From: Methanolobus sp.
Lineage (GTDB): Archaea > Halobacteriota > Methanosarcinia > Methanosarcinales > Methanosarcinaceae
Direction of reading: 5' to 3'
DNA length: 47,012 nt
Assembly (NCBI GenBank): GCA_030154025.1
Contig: JASKKT010000015.1
Location: forward strand, 1-47,012
Within the stretch, counting starts at the first letter, position 1. Every line of letters starts with the position of its first letter. The position numbers and the translations under genes were made by a program. The notes below the pieces were generated by a model. That model was not told the origin of the DNA and made no database searches. It saw nothing but the letters and a program-made list of their open reading frames with translations. Below, in pieces: positions 6,698 to 11,635 of this stretch.

Positions 6698-7162
6698 ATG
6701 GAAAAAGGGAGGCTCCCGGTAGTTCTCATAGGAGTTCTTGCACTTCTTATACTTGCAGGAGGTATTTATGCAGGAGCAGTCCACCTGAAAGCGGACTCTC
6801 GCGAACTGAATGTGAGTTCAGCCAGGGCAGTGAGCCTGGTGCAGGATGACCCGACAGCGGCTGCCTATATGTCTGACAACTTCAGGGTTTCAGGCTGGAG
6901 GGCGACAAAGACCACGCTTGTTGAGGGAACTGAACTGGCAGGTAATATCCCGGCCAACCTTAGCGTAAGCACAGCAGACGGCACCCGGGCATGGAAAGTG
7001 GAGATCATGGAGCGGACCTGCGCATGTCCCGCGCCAAATAATCTCTATGTGGTTGAAGGCTATGTGGATGCCAGCACGGGAGAGGTCCTTCATGTCAGGA
7101 CCATGAAGGCCCCGGAGAAAAACTATGAGAAAGAAACCTGTGCCTCAACAGCCTGTCACTAA
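6698..7162 (+). CDS. Membrane-anchored PepSY-like protein, partner of a thioredoxin-CcdA protein
   Basis: A 154-residue protein with one N-terminal membrane anchor (about residues 8-28) and an extracytoplasmic domain. The C-terminal block LYVVEGYVDASTGEVLHV resembles the end of a PepSY unit. Five cysteines, as two pairs plus none in the membrane helix (CAC near 107-109, and C149/C153 of CASTAC at the end), suggest thiol chemistry or metal binding. The last 38 nt overlap the start of the thioredoxin-CcdA gene, so the two are translated together and probably work in one redox pathway outside the membrane. No ribosome binding site is visible and the promoter geometry implies a leaderless message. 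The function of this exact family is unknown to me. Confidence 0.65.
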   Translation: MEKGRLPVVLIGVLALLILAGGIYAGAVHLKADSRELNVSSARAVSLVQDDPTAAAYMSDNFRVSGWRATKTTLVEGTELAGNIPANLSVSTADGTRAWKVEIMERTCACPAPNNLYVVEGYVDASTGEVLHVRTMKAPEKNYEKETCASTACH

Positions 7163-8243
7163 AGGTCTTCTGGCAGCTGCTGCCATCCTGTTTCTTGTCA
7201 TGCATATGTCTGTAGCCGCAGCCGTACCGGATGAAGTGCAGGTGGAATACTTCTATGATGTTGCCTGCAGCAAATGTTCAAAAGCGGCTCCTGTGATTGA
7301 AGATGTTGCATCCCGTTATGAGAATGCCAATCTTACCTCTTATGATATAAGATCCTCGTATTCGTATGCGCAGCAGTATGGGATAACTCTCGTGCCTGCC
7401 GTTGTCATCAACAGGAGTGTGGTCATCACCTATGATGATTACAAGGGGGATACTGCACTGCTTGAAGACCTGCTTGTAAAGGCCATCGAGAATCCCACGG
7501 AGACCATGACCCCTCCTTATCCCCGGGATGGATCTACGGCAGTGGGAAACGACCTGATTATTGGCAAATCCCACCTGCTTGTATTCATAGCAGGACTGCT
7601 CGCGGGTTTCAATCCATGTCTGCTGGCAGTCATGGCTTTCCTGTCTTCTGCCATCATCTCCTCAAACGGGACACGCAAGGAAATGCTGACCCTGGTTTGC
7701 GGTTTTTGTGCAGGGATCTTTGTGACCTACATGGTAGTGGGCATAGGGATCCTTAATACTGTAAGTTCCTTCCCCGGCATACAGGAAACCCTTGCTGCGA
7801 CAATGGTCGTGCTAATTGCTATTCTTGGACTATGGCACCTCTATGATGCGTATCACATGAGGTCGCATCAAAAGTCCACGTTTAAAACACCCGGGTTCTT
7901 TATCCGTTTCATGGGAAATATCACAGGCAGGAACATCATGCTACTGTCCTTTATGGCAGGGGCGGTGTTCTCACTGATAAAGGCTCCGTGTGTGGGGGCA
8001 GTTTATCTTGCCATCCTTAACATGCTTATCTCCGGCAGCGACTTCACGGGTGGTCTCATCTACCTGGGCATCTACAATCTTGGCGTGGTCCTGCCTATAC
8101 TTGTGCTGGGGGGAATGCTTGCTTTCGGACTGGACCCTGAGAAGGTCTCGGACTTCAAGGAAAGAAGACGTGTCGAGATACGCCTCATAACCGGACTGAT
8201 ACTTCTCCTGCTGGCTGTGCTGCTTCATCTTAGAGTGATATGA
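7125..8243 (+). CDS. Thioredoxin-like domain fused to CcdA/DsbD-type transmembrane electron carrier
   Basis: A 372-residue fusion. After a signal or anchor segment (about 14-33) comes a thioredoxin-like domain with the redox pair C48-x2-C51 (ACSKCS) and the expected cis-proline (P91 in TLVPAVV). From about residue 148 a CcdA/DsbD-type membrane domain follows with six predicted helices. Its two paired cysteines are C165 in FNPCLL and C289 in IKAPCVG, the residues that relay electrons across the membrane. The protein should move reducing power from cytoplasmic thioredoxin to an extracytoplasmic thiol partner. That partner is plausibly the overlapping PepSY-like protein, as an inference from gene order. 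The ATG at 7125 has GGAG about 9 nt upstream. Confidence 0.88.
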   Translation: MRKKPVPQQPVTKGLLAAAAILFLVMHMSVAAAVPDEVQVEYFYDVACSKCSKAAPVIEDVASRYENANLTSYDIRSSYSYAQQYGITLVPAVVINRSVVITYDDYKGDTALLEDLLVKAIENPTETMTPPYPRDGSTAVGNDLIIGKSHLLVFIAGLLAGFNPCLLAVMAFLSSAIISSNGTRKEMLTLVCGFCAGIFVTYMVVGIGILNTVSSFPGIQETLAATMVVLIAILGLWHLYDAYHMRSHQKSTFKTPGFFIRFMGNITGRNIMLLSFMAGAVFSLIKAPCVGAVYLAILNMLISGSDFTGGLIYLGIYNLGVVLPILVLGGMLAFGLDPEKVSDFKERRRVEIRLITGLILLLLAVLLHLRVI

Positions 8244-8274: not shown

Positions 8275-9144
8275 TCAGTACCCTGTGAGCAGGTATGCGG
8301 CTGTGACAGCTGCGATGCATACGGAAAGATTCAGCGTGATATTGAGCAGGGAATATTTTGTCTCTCCCTGTTCCATGAGCCTGAAGGACTCATAGGCGAA
8401 GGTGGAGAAGGTGGTAAAAGAGCCAAGTACCCCGATGCTTACCAGGTATATCAGGGAACCGGATACGGAGGAGAAAGTGATCAGAGCAAGTGCGAAACTG
8501 CCTGTGATATTCACAGCCAGGGTGCCGGCAGGGATCTCACCTGCTTTTGGGATCGTTCCTGATACAAGGAATCTGAGGACTGCACCTGCAAATCCTCCTG
8601 CTCCCACAAGGAACAGTTCGGTGGTCATGGGAAAACCGCCTGATATGGCCGGAGAGAGTATCAGGACAGACAATCCGGCAATGGCATATGCCTTTGGGCG
8701 AACCTGTGTGCCGCCAGGAAGTCTCACCGTACTTAGCGCAGAAGGGAGTACCGCTCTTTCCTGAAGGGTGGCAAGACCGATGGCAGAGCCCCTGCCCATG
8801 AACACTCCTCCCAGTGTGAGGGCCAGGTTCCCGAGAATGTTCAGGGATGCACTCAGGGGTGGCATCTGGAAGGTCTGTACCGCAAATGTGGAGAATGTTG
8901 TGAAAGAGCCCAGGAATCCAATCCCCAGGAACATCCTGGTCCTAGGGCTCACGTACCCAAGATACTCGGAACTGTAGAGCAGGAATCCCAGCAGGATGCT
9001 TCCGAGCACGTTGACAGCAAGCGTGCCTGCTGAGGGGCTGAAATGGCCTGAAAGTGCAAACCTGGATGTTGCCCCCAGCACTCCTCCCGTGCCTATGATG
9101 AGCAGGGAATGATGTTTTTCATAAAGAGCTGCCTGTTCACTCAA
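8275..9144 (-). CDS. crcB: Fluoride channel, two Fluc/CrcB domains fused through an extra membrane helix
   Basis: Normal CrcB/Fluc subunits are about 125 residues, have four helices and assemble as antiparallel dimers that export fluoride. This 289-residue protein holds two complete copies. Domain 1 spans about residues 12-125 (R28, N45 in GTLAVN, TTFSTF at 82-87) and domain 2 about 174-288 (R191, N212 in GTLAVN, TTFSTF at 244-249). Between them a hydrophobic segment at about 152-168 is a ninth helix, which would invert domain 2 relative to domain 1. This is the arrangement of eukaryotic FEX. Both halves keep the channel asparagine and the phenylalanine motif, so neither looks dead. It overlaps moeA by 8 nt, as the last gene of a moaD-moeA-crcB unit. 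Confidence 0.93.
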   Translation of the reverse strand: MSEQAALYEKHHSLLIIGTGGVLGATSRFALSGHFSPSAGTLAVNVLGSILLGFLLYSSEYLGYVSPRTRMFLGIGFLGSFTTFSTFAVQTFQMPPLSASLNILGNLALTLGGVFMGRGSAIGLATLQERAVLPSALSTVRLPGGTQVRPKAYAIAGLSVLILSPAISGGFPMTTELFLVGAGGFAGAVLRFLVSGTIPKAGEIPAGTLAVNITGSFALALITFSSVSGSLIYLVSIGVLGSFTTFSTFAYESFRLMEQGETKYSLLNITLNLSVCIAAVTAAYLLTGY

Positions 9145-10333
9145 TCAGTACAACGTCCACTTCGTTCCCTTCCTCGTAACCTTCCACGTTCTCGGGTATG
9201 ATGACAAATCCGCTGGACTTGGCAATGGAGCTCAGGATCCCCGCTCCTGCTGTCATGAGGGGCCGGGCGATATTCCCTTCCAGTATCACCCTTGCATAGC
9301 TCACATAGCCTTCCCTGGAATTGATTTTGCCCGTAAGCCTTGCCTTTACTGTGATGTCAGGTATCTGCGGTATGTTGCCCTTTTTGCGCATTGCCGGTTT
9401 CCCGAACGCAAAGAGCGCCACTAGGCCCGCGGCAGGATATCCGGGCATGCATAACACGGGTACTTCTCCTATGATTCCGAGGGCTGTGGGTTTACCGGGA
9501 CTGAGGCCAACACCATGCACCAGCTTCTTCCCCAGGGAGGCCAGCACATCAGGCACATAATCCTTCTCCCCCACGGATGTACCGCCGGAGATCACGATAA
9601 AGTCAGCATCCAGGTTCTCTGAGATGGCATTTCTTATAAGCTCCCTGTCCTCGGGAACTATCGGACAGTACCTTGGTTGTACACCCCACTGCTTTACATA
9701 CAAACCTATCATCAGGCTGTTGATGTCCAGTGTTTTTCCAGGTGCAGGCATCTCTTTTCCGCTATCAGGCGGGATCAGGTCGTTACCTGTCGGGATGATG
9801 GCAACCAGCGGCCGGGAGTAGGCCTTGATCTCCCCGATACCGAGGGATGCAAGCACCGCCACGTCACAGGGGCGCAGCAGGTGGCCTTTATTGAATATTA
9901 TCTCGTTCTTCCTCACATCCTCCCCGATATCGCCTATGTTCTTTCCGGGATGGACCTGAGCGCGCACCTCTATCATATCGCCGATGCATATCGTATCCTC
10001 TGTCATGAGCACCGCATCCGCATCATCGGGCACATAGGCTCCGGTACTGACCGGGCAGCAGGTGCCCTCATCAATATCATCCCCTATCTGCAGTATCACA
10101 GGGTTGGTGGGTGAGGCACCCATGATGTCAGCCGAGCGGACAGCATAGCCATCCATGGCTGAGCGGCGGTAGTGCGGGACATTCCGGGGTGCAAGTATGC
10201 CGGTAGCAAGCACCCTGCCCACGCCTTCATAGATCGTGATGTTTTCAGTGCGTTCAAGAGGCTTTATAGCAGCAAGGAAGCTGTCCCTTGCCTCTTTCAC
10301 GCTGCTGCGCTCTTTAAAGATCCTGCTGTCCAT
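9137..10333 (-). CDS. moeA: Molybdopterin molybdenumtransferase MoeA
   Basis: A 398-residue MoeA, which inserts molybdate or tungstate into adenylylated molybdopterin. The family blocks are in order: the early hinge VPHYRRSAMDGYAVRSAD, the MoCF-binding domain with ISGGTSVGEKDYV, the LHGVGLSPGKPT-like block, the LCMPGYPAAG loop, and a C-terminal beta domain. Length is normal and no catalytic block is missing. It lies 15 nt behind the moaD-like gene and overlaps crcB at its end, all on the minus strand. MoaB is encoded 4 kb away. In a methanogen the likely client enzymes are formylmethanofuran and formate dehydrogenases, though none is encoded in the window. Confidence 0.95.
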   Translation of the reverse strand: MDSRIFKERSSVKEARDSFLAAIKPLERTENITIYEGVGRVLATGILAPRNVPHYRRSAMDGYAVRSADIMGASPTNPVILQIGDDIDEGTCCPVSTGAYVPDDADAVLMTEDTICIGDMIEVRAQVHPGKNIGDIGEDVRKNEIIFNKGHLLRPCDVAVLASLGIGEIKAYSRPLVAIIPTGNDLIPPDSGKEMPAPGKTLDINSLMIGLYVKQWGVQPRYCPIVPEDRELIRNAISENLDADFIVISGGTSVGEKDYVPDVLASLGKKLVHGVGLSPGKPTALGIIGEVPVLCMPGYPAAGLVALFAFGKPAMRKKGNIPQIPDITVKARLTGKINSREGYVSYARVILEGNIARPLMTAGAGILSSIAKSSGFVIIPENVEGYEEGNEVDVVLIE

Positions 10334-10348: not shown

Positions 10349-10633
10349 TCATCCACCTGACACGGGAGGGAACACGCCGATCTCGTCCCCTTCCTTTACT
10401 TCCGTTGCGAGGCTGTCCATGTGCTTTACATTGTTCCCGTTAAGGAACACATTGATGTATCCCCGAAGCTTCGGCTCATCACCTGTTCTCTCAAAAATCA
10501 TTTCCTTCAGGGCCGGGTACTGCCCCGTAAGATCGGACAGCACCTCCTGCACATTATTCCCCTCGAGCAACAGCGAGGATTCACCCGCGATCTCTCTGAG
10601 GTTTGCGAAGAGTTTGACCTTGACCTTTGCCAT
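10349..10633 (-). CDS. MoaD/ThiS-family sulfur-carrier protein
   Basis: A 94-residue ubiquitin-fold sulfur carrier. It ends in the required diglycine (FPPVSGG), which is adenylylated and thiocarboxylated before donating sulfur. The N-terminal MAKVKVKLFANLREIAG and the late GDEIGVFPP are typical of archaeal MoaD. Its position 15 nt in front of moeA supports a role as small subunit of molybdopterin synthase rather than in thiamine or tRNA thiolation. No moaE or E1-like gene is nearby to confirm this. Confidence 0.88.
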   Translation of the reverse strand: MAKVKVKLFANLREIAGESSLLLEGNNVQEVLSDLTGQYPALKEMIFERTGDEPKLRGYINVFLNGNNVKHMDSLATEVKEGDEIGVFPPVSGG

Positions 10634-10852: not shown

Positions 10853-11635
10853 CTAATGGTCTCCGGCCTTGTCGAAAGACCAGCTTCCAATGAGTATCAT
10901 GGTAAAGGAGAATACGGTGATTATTGTCATGGAGCGCATGATCGGCACTTCCGATGCCCCGAGAAGCGCCCACCTGAGAGCTTCCACTCCATAAGTGAGT
11001 GGATTGAGCTGTACGGGTATGCTCAGCCACAGAGGCAGGTTAGCCATGGGGTAGAACGCAGTGCTTGCCATCAATGTGGGGAAGGTGATGAAGGTCATCA
11101 TCATCTGGAATCCCTCGTGCGATTCTATTCTTGAGGCAAGGGTGATCCCAAGCCCGATAAAGCCCATCCCCGTGATGAACATTATCAGGATGCTTAACAA
11201 TTGCCCGGTCACGGATACGTATTCCACAACGAACATGCCGCTGATCACCATAAGCAAGGTACCCTGCACCATAGCCGCCGTAACGCCTCCCGCAGCTTTA
11301 CCAAAAGCTGTATAGAAGCGGCTGACAGGCGCCACGAGTATCTCTTTCAGGAAACCGAACTCACGGTCCCAGATGATGGAGACGCCTCCCATGAGCGATG
11401 CGAACAGCACGGACATGCCGATGATGCCCGGTGCCATGTAATCTATATAGTTACCGGAACGCATGGTCATTGTAGTGCTCAGGGCGGACCCCATTATGAT
11501 CAGGAAGAACAGCGGGGTTGCCAGGGATCCGATGATCCTGGAACGTGAGCGCCTGTAGCGAAGCATCTCCCGCAGCCACAGGGTGAACACAGTGTTCAGA
11601 GAATGCTTCAGTCCGGTGACTCCCATAATTGCCAT
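10853..11635 (-). CDS. ABC-2 type transporter permease without adjacent ATPase
   Basis: A 260-residue permease of the ABC-2 family with about six membrane helices, used in drug, polysaccharide or lipid-linked export. The amphipathic N-terminus before helix 1, the MAPGIIGMSVLFASLMGG segment and the late NPLTYGVEALRW motif are typical. ABC-2 permeases need an ATP-binding partner, and none is encoded beside it; the only ABC ATPase in the window is 16 kb away with its own FtsX-type permease. Its ATG shares one base with the ubiX stop codon (TAATG), so it is translationally coupled at the end of the HD-LpdD-ubiX unit. An internal ATG three codons later is an alternative start. The substrate is unknown. 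Confidence 0.85.
   Translation of the reverse strand: MAIMGVTGLKHSLNTVFTLWLREMLRYRRSRSRIIGSLATPLFFLIIMGSALSTTMTMRSGNYIDYMAPGIIGMSVLFASLMGGVSIIWDREFGFLKEILVAPVSRFYTAFGKAAGGVTAAMVQGTLLMVISGMFVVEYVSVTGQLLSILIMFITGMGFIGLGITLASRIESHEGFQMMMTFITFPTLMASTAFYPMANLPLWLSIPVQLNPLTYGVEALRWALLGASEVPIMRSMTIITVFSFTMILIGSWSFDKAGDH

Follow-up and report, generated by a model that had tools for sequence, protein, structure and literature searches.

How can two membrane domains with an even number of helices come to lie antiparallel in a single chain? Many transporters contain inverted repeats, whose presumed source is dual-topology proteins that were duplicated and fused. The domains of DUF606 proteins contain an odd number of helices and can do without an inverting linker, whereas Fluc domains have four helices and do need one. 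To our knowledge, the known case of such an even-helix fusion is FEX, which is ancient and is seen only in fungi, plants and animals. Joining even-helix domains requires an extra helix, and Stockbridge and colleagues commented that this must have required evolutionary gymnastics (PMC3755343). In the papers found, prokaryotic Fluc proteins are homodimers or the products of paired genes, and a fused two-domain channel is a eukaryotic feature (PMC3755343, PMC5417652, PMC8315801). The window analyzed here, a 47,012-nucleotide stretch of Methanolobus DNA, raises the question in an archaeon.

We propose, with a probability of roughly 0.8, that a gene in this window encodes a FEX-like single-chain fluoride channel that arose from an antiparallel CrcB1-CrcB2 heterodimer, its two genes having been joined by an in-frame copy from a permease gene. 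Computed support comes from the fusion itself, its single origin in place, the pore residues, the opposite charge bias of the halves, the FEX-like predicted fold and the homology between linker and permease. Membrane topology, channel activity, the copying event with its direction, and any benefit of the fusion are what we infer from these.

The fused gene and its neighbors

8275..9144 (-), fused two-domain CrcB/Fluc gene, 289 aa (ORF; two PF02537 matches; intact orthologues in six further genomes)
8755..9108 (-), half 1, residues 13-130: four membrane helices, predicted N-in; counterpart of the separate upstream gene crcB1
8278..8622 (-), half 2, residues 175-289: four membrane helices, predicted N-out; counterpart of the separate downstream gene crcB2
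9137..10333 (-), moeA (Pfam MoeA_N, MoCF_biosynth, MoeA_C), with an 8-nt overlap between its stop and the fused gene's start; the same neighbor in split-gene relatives
10349..10633 (-), moaD-like gene of the ThiS family (Pfam PF02597), a conserved neighbor
10853..11635 (-), ABC-2 permease gene (Pfam PF01061), the likely linker donor according to the linker searches

A first-pass annotation of the window placed both CrcB domains in one gene, and this was confirmed: a single 289-aa frame, beginning with TTG, contains two Pfam CRCB (PF02537) stretches. The whole protein matches the family with an E-value of 1.6e-42 and 144.5 bits (curated cut-off, 32.9), and each half passes the cut-off alone. 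The fused frame is intact in seven genomes, two of them single-contig (G111 and G112), and is therefore neither a chance frame nor an assembly error. The other six intact proteins are 58-81% identical to the one in the window.

The gene order moaD, moeA, crcB1, crcB2 is present in the Methanosarcinaceae loci examined, with three exceptions (L050, L097 and L100) in which moaD was matched beside crcB and moeA was not. The coupling to moaD and moeA suggested earlier stands in that Pfam identifies both neighbors, but the arrangement is an older gene order found across the family and is nothing special to the fusion. The ABC-2 permease gene lies in the same cluster, ~2.5 kb upstream of the fused gene. 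No fluoride riboswitch for the fused gene was found in the window at the Rfam gathering score. The convergent neighbor (window 7125-8243) encodes, according to Pfam, a single protein in which a DsbD-type membrane domain comes after a thioredoxin domain, and a gene of this thioredoxin/DsbD type adjoins crcB in most Methanolobus loci read.

Distribution and origin of the fusion

The fusion is present in eight of 27 Methanolobus genomes, seven with an intact gene and one (G146) with a frame break. The remaining genomes have separate half-length matches, apart from two without a match and one with a fragment only. A search of archaeal genomes for the fused form, covering 393 genomes sampled across the phylum, gave full-length fused matches only in Methanolobus among the matches listed, so the form is not common in this phylum. 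The open-frame column of that search had hinted at fusions in Methanosarcina and other archaea. These were not upheld: the DNA of one Methanosarcina has a stop between the two genes, none of 20 further loci from the phylum has a two-domain frame, and the hint was dropped on these grounds.

Phylogenetic reconstructions place the eight fused genes in one clade, whose ultrafast bootstrap support is 100 when the halves are concatenated and 99 when only half 2 is used; the clade is not resolved from half 1 by itself. The tree of the neighboring MoeA recovers the same clade with support of 100. The fused clade is nested among archaea in which the same locus, moaD-moeA-crcB-crcB, has its two crcB genes separate. 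Together, the single clade, its agreement with MoeA and the locus shared with split pairs make it most likely that the fusion happened once, in place. The most likely history on this sequence evidence is one in-place fusion followed by vertical descent, independent of eukaryotic FEX, and the earlier suggestion of an independent fusion is thus supported. In G146, which also has a stand-alone crcB, the frameshift falls at the junction of linker and half 2 (L040:6044-6873).

In several Methanosarcina and two other archaea (L051:5764-6516; L172-L177, L180, L085), crcB1 and crcB2 are neighbors that share a reading frame and are divided by a stop. In several Methanosarcina this is one stop codon only, as at L051 (...SSREI stop EMFPV...). 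Loss of the intervening stop in such a pair would fuse crcB1 to crcB2 without an inverting helix. The same-frame pairs stay separate in those read, which fits the view, without proving it, that fusion lacking an inverting helix is not tolerated.

Pore residues

Pore positions were set by alignment to Fluc-Ec2, with residues as in PMC8315801. The asparagine of GTLAVN and the TTFSTF motif had been noted in both halves, and GTLAVN and FTTFSTF are indeed kept in each. In the seven fused proteins, neither half varies at the TM1 Arg, the TM2 Thr and Asn, the Thr pair, the two Phe or the vestibule Ser. Of the T-E-Y triad, half 2 retains the conserved Glu (E252), where half 1 has a Gln (Q90). The description of two undamaged halves is therefore correct for the other pore residues but not for this position of half 1.

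All fused genes and all 15 split Methanolobus upstream genes counted encode the half-1 Gln, so pore symmetry was broken before the fusion. As far as the residues tell, this pre-fusion asymmetry is mild, unlike that of FEX, in which one pore is vestigial (PMC5417652). The ratio of half-1 to half-2 divergence is 1.12 in the fused set versus 0.84 in the split set; this may hint at a drift of one pore after fusion, which we do not claim.

Topology and predicted fold

With four helices in each half, the halves can be antiparallel in one chain only if something crosses the membrane between them. A ninth hydrophobic segment had been proposed at this place. It was located at residues 153-171, with a Kyte-Doolittle mean of 1.62 that is within the range of the protein's other membrane segments. 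The equivalent segment is present in all seven intact fused proteins, again with hydrophobicity like that of the other membrane segments. Mean conservation is 55% in the linker versus 77% in the halves.

Charge bias was calculated from Lys+Arg counts on the loops. It is +4 for half 1 and -3 for half 2 of the window protein, and across all seven intact fused proteins half 1 ranges from +2 to +6 (N-in) and half 2 from -3 to -5 (N-out). Split upstream genes have values of +4 to +9; those of split downstream genes are mostly negative, some near zero.

AlphaFold2, run on 16 alignment rows, gave a moderate model (pLDDT 69.9, pTM 0.69). Nine of these rows are tandem genes of relatives in which the intervening stop was read through as Gln, which keeps the halves paired. 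Helices are predicted at residues 3-32, 37-59, 67-81/84-92, 96-130, 151-170, 175-197, 206-225, 231-243/246-258 and 262-286. These correspond to nine membrane helices, and each half shows the TM3 break typical of Fluc (81/84 and 243/246). The fifth of them, with pLDDT below 50, is the linker helix:

8635..8694 (-), linker helix, residues 151-170 (AlphaFold2), predicted as a membrane span running from inside to outside

Among 350,542 solved chains, the predicted fold is matched best by Candida albicans FEX (PDB 9op1, E 3.3e-6), with a TM-score of 0.65 on the query and 0.59 on the target; single Fluc chains reach ~0.36 on the query. The match to 9op1 and the loop charges suggest that the halves pack antiparallel. 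The idea of a topologically fixed antiparallel channel of FEX-like plan is thus supported by the nine helices, the opposite charge bias and FEX as the best whole-length fold match, and the predictions gave neither eight helices nor a parallel charge pattern.

Likely origin of the linker helix

8635..8751 (-), part of the linker aligning to the ABC-2 permease, residues 132-170 (alignment, profile and reciprocal searches)
11384..11497 (-), permease stretch matched by the window's linker: end of TM1, loop and most of TM2 (alignment)

When one linker was searched against whole genomes, the matches outside the fused genes fell repeatedly in a single further gene, that of the ABC-2 permease in the cluster; the linkers align to the same region of this permease. 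Profile-profile comparison of linkers and permease with hhalign gave a probability of 95.9 and an E-value of 5.5e-9. A linker profile run against 27 whole genomes found the eight fused genes and then, at 7.7e-7 to 4.7e-4, the permease in 18 genomes, its identity being checked at the loci read and elsewhere taken from frame length and distance to crcB. Nothing else in these 27 genomes scored better than 0.007. In the reverse direction, a profile built from the permease segment picks up three linkers, those of G146 and G112 (2e-5) and of G148 (9e-4), alongside the permease itself and other ABC-2-like frames.

Individual linkers differ in how well they match. G112 and G146 form a basal pair within the fused clade, and the linker of each reaches a score of 84, compared with a mean of 30.5 for shuffled sequences (maxima 56 and 58 in 2000 shuffles). 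The weakest match is the linker in the window, with a score of 43 and P 0.01. At the DNA level the linkers of G112, G146 and G148 score 44-50 against the permease, on the same strand, with maxima of 36, 41 and 34 in 300 shuffles. Linker DNA of G000, G107, G129, G111 and G125 scores inside the shuffled range or close to it.

The fusion and the antiparallel channel could be real and the linker nevertheless descend from non-coding or crcB-derived sequence, its likeness to the permease being hydrophobic convergence. The aligned stretch is indeed short (about 35-45 aa) and hydrophobic, four linkers have moderate permease scores, that of the window among the low ones by its P of 0.01, and the DNA of the nearest relatives, the five just named, barely departs from shuffled sequence if at all. 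We regard this explanation as improbable, since the linker profile finds the same neighboring gene across 27 genomes and no other protein at comparable E-values, the search works in both directions and hhalign agrees, the match extends past the helix to take in the loop ahead of it, and the linkers of the basal G112 and G146 exceed every shuffled score (84 versus at most 58) and stand out in DNA too.

If the linker does come from the permease, the simplest account on sequence is that some 110-150 nt were copied locally and inserted in frame between crcB1 and crcB2. In G146 the permease is absent from the cluster stretch read and the linker is kept. Judged by the flanking charges, the donor helix would run from outside to inside in the permease and the linker from inside to outside. 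Linkers have positive residues before the helix (e.g. KGR, VRPK), most are without the Asp of the donor's YIDYM, and they are without the charged WDREFGFLK that follows the donor helix. These changes are such as the positive-inside rule would favor. Quite probably, then, a helix of a neighboring ABC-2 permease was copied in frame between the genes of an antiparallel heterodimer within one archaeal genus and yielded a FEX-like channel, with the donor identifiable and unfused relatives extant.

Proposed mechanism and function

In the proposed sequence of events, an ancestral antiparallel heterodimer of CrcB1 and CrcB2, encoded by adjacent genes after moaD-moeA in Methanosarcinaceae, would have become one polypeptide. 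The joint would be the short in-frame copy of the permease gene, comprising the end of TM1, the loop and TM2. Its helix would cross from inside to outside, so that the opposite orientations the subunits already had would be kept. The product would be a FEX-like inverted repeat with two potential pores, through which fluoride could leave the cell passively, and the fusion may have been of benefit by fixing stoichiometry and orientation.

That the pore residues are invariant in seven diverged proteins speaks for a functional channel. Engineered Fluc fusions conform to what the model would lead one to expect, with minimal activity when parallel and full activity as a monomer when a foreign membrane helix separates the subunits (PMC3755343). 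No CrcB besides the fused one was found in six of the eight genomes; the other two, the window genome and G146, have a stand-alone crcB in addition. In the window genome this second gene is on contig C82 (L033:4765-5587), beside a DUF190 gene and with a fluoride riboswitch (RF01734, 50.2 bits).

Still less probable than convergence is that the linker does not cross the membrane, as a surface or re-entrant helix, with the halves parallel or paired between chains, or that the fused gene is decaying while a stand-alone crcB does the work: the linker helix is low in pLDDT and conservation, G146 is frameshifted and the second crcB of the window genome carries a riboswitch, but linker hydrophobicity is kept in seven of seven proteins despite sequence drift, the halves have opposite charge bias, engineered parallel Fluc fusions have minimal activity (PMC3755343), and the pore residues are invariant in seven intact genes, of which six are the sole CrcB found in their genome.

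Relation to known systems

The single-chain channel proposed for Methanolobus resembles eukaryotic FEX (fungi, plants, some animals) in having two Fluc domains in one chain with a membrane helix as the joint, and FEX is its best solved fold match. It differs in its separate and younger origin inside an archaeal genus, in a linker that appears to derive from an ABC-2 permease, and in its pores. One pore of FEX is vestigial (PMC5417652), whereas the Methanolobus protein keeps the Arg, Asn, Phe box and Ser in both halves and differs only in the half-1 Glu. Heterodimeric Fluc pairs, such as Lactobacillus La1/La2 and the split crcB1-crcB2 of Methanosarcinaceae, have the same domains and opposite charge bias, and the archaeal relatives share the locus; they differ in being two genes and two chains without a linker helix.

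A parallel in design is Laf-TM, a fully active monomeric channel obtained by engineering a foreign membrane helix (from glycophorin A) between La1 and La2 (PMC3755343). Both proteins join antiparallel Fluc domains by a foreign membrane helix, but Laf-TM was made in the laboratory, whereas the Methanolobus fusion is natural and its helix probably comes from a neighboring gene. DUF606 membrane proteins, according to the part of PMC3962082 that cites Lolkema 2008, occur as single, paired and fused genes, a similar series from dual topology through paired genes to a fused antiparallel protein.

The literature searched, mostly outside subscription journals and preprints, contains no description of a fused prokaryotic CrcB or of Methanolobus crcB, in keeping with the first-pass view that the form was not already well described. 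Bacterial coverage for fused CrcB consisted of the best 80 loci. What is new here is an identifiable donor of the linker helix. Paired genes, fused genes, linker and likely donor all survive in one genus, so that the fusion step is readable and can be rebuilt. This opens the questions of which piece was copied, how a helix adapts to the opposite orientation, whether the fusion is active alone, and whether one pore will decay as in FEX.

A 235-aa CrcB in bacteria

Another two-domain arrangement was observed in a 235-aa CrcB of bacteria, several of them methanotrophs (Methyloprofundus, Methylomonas, Methylococcaceae): L145:2075-2782, L155:1869-2576, L116:4007-4714, L125:4016-4723, L126:4046-4753, L138:4004-4711 and L161:4004-4711. 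A normal four-helix CrcB is followed by a second domain homologous to CrcB TM2-TM4 without TM1 (hhalign E 1.8e-22), giving about seven hydrophobic segments in all, and the Phe box is lost in the second domain. The AlphaFold2 model of this protein is poor (pTM 0.45). By parity, the second domain would be inverted by the loss of one helix, the converse of inverting it by gaining one. The 235-aa protein is the only CrcB found in those seven genomes.
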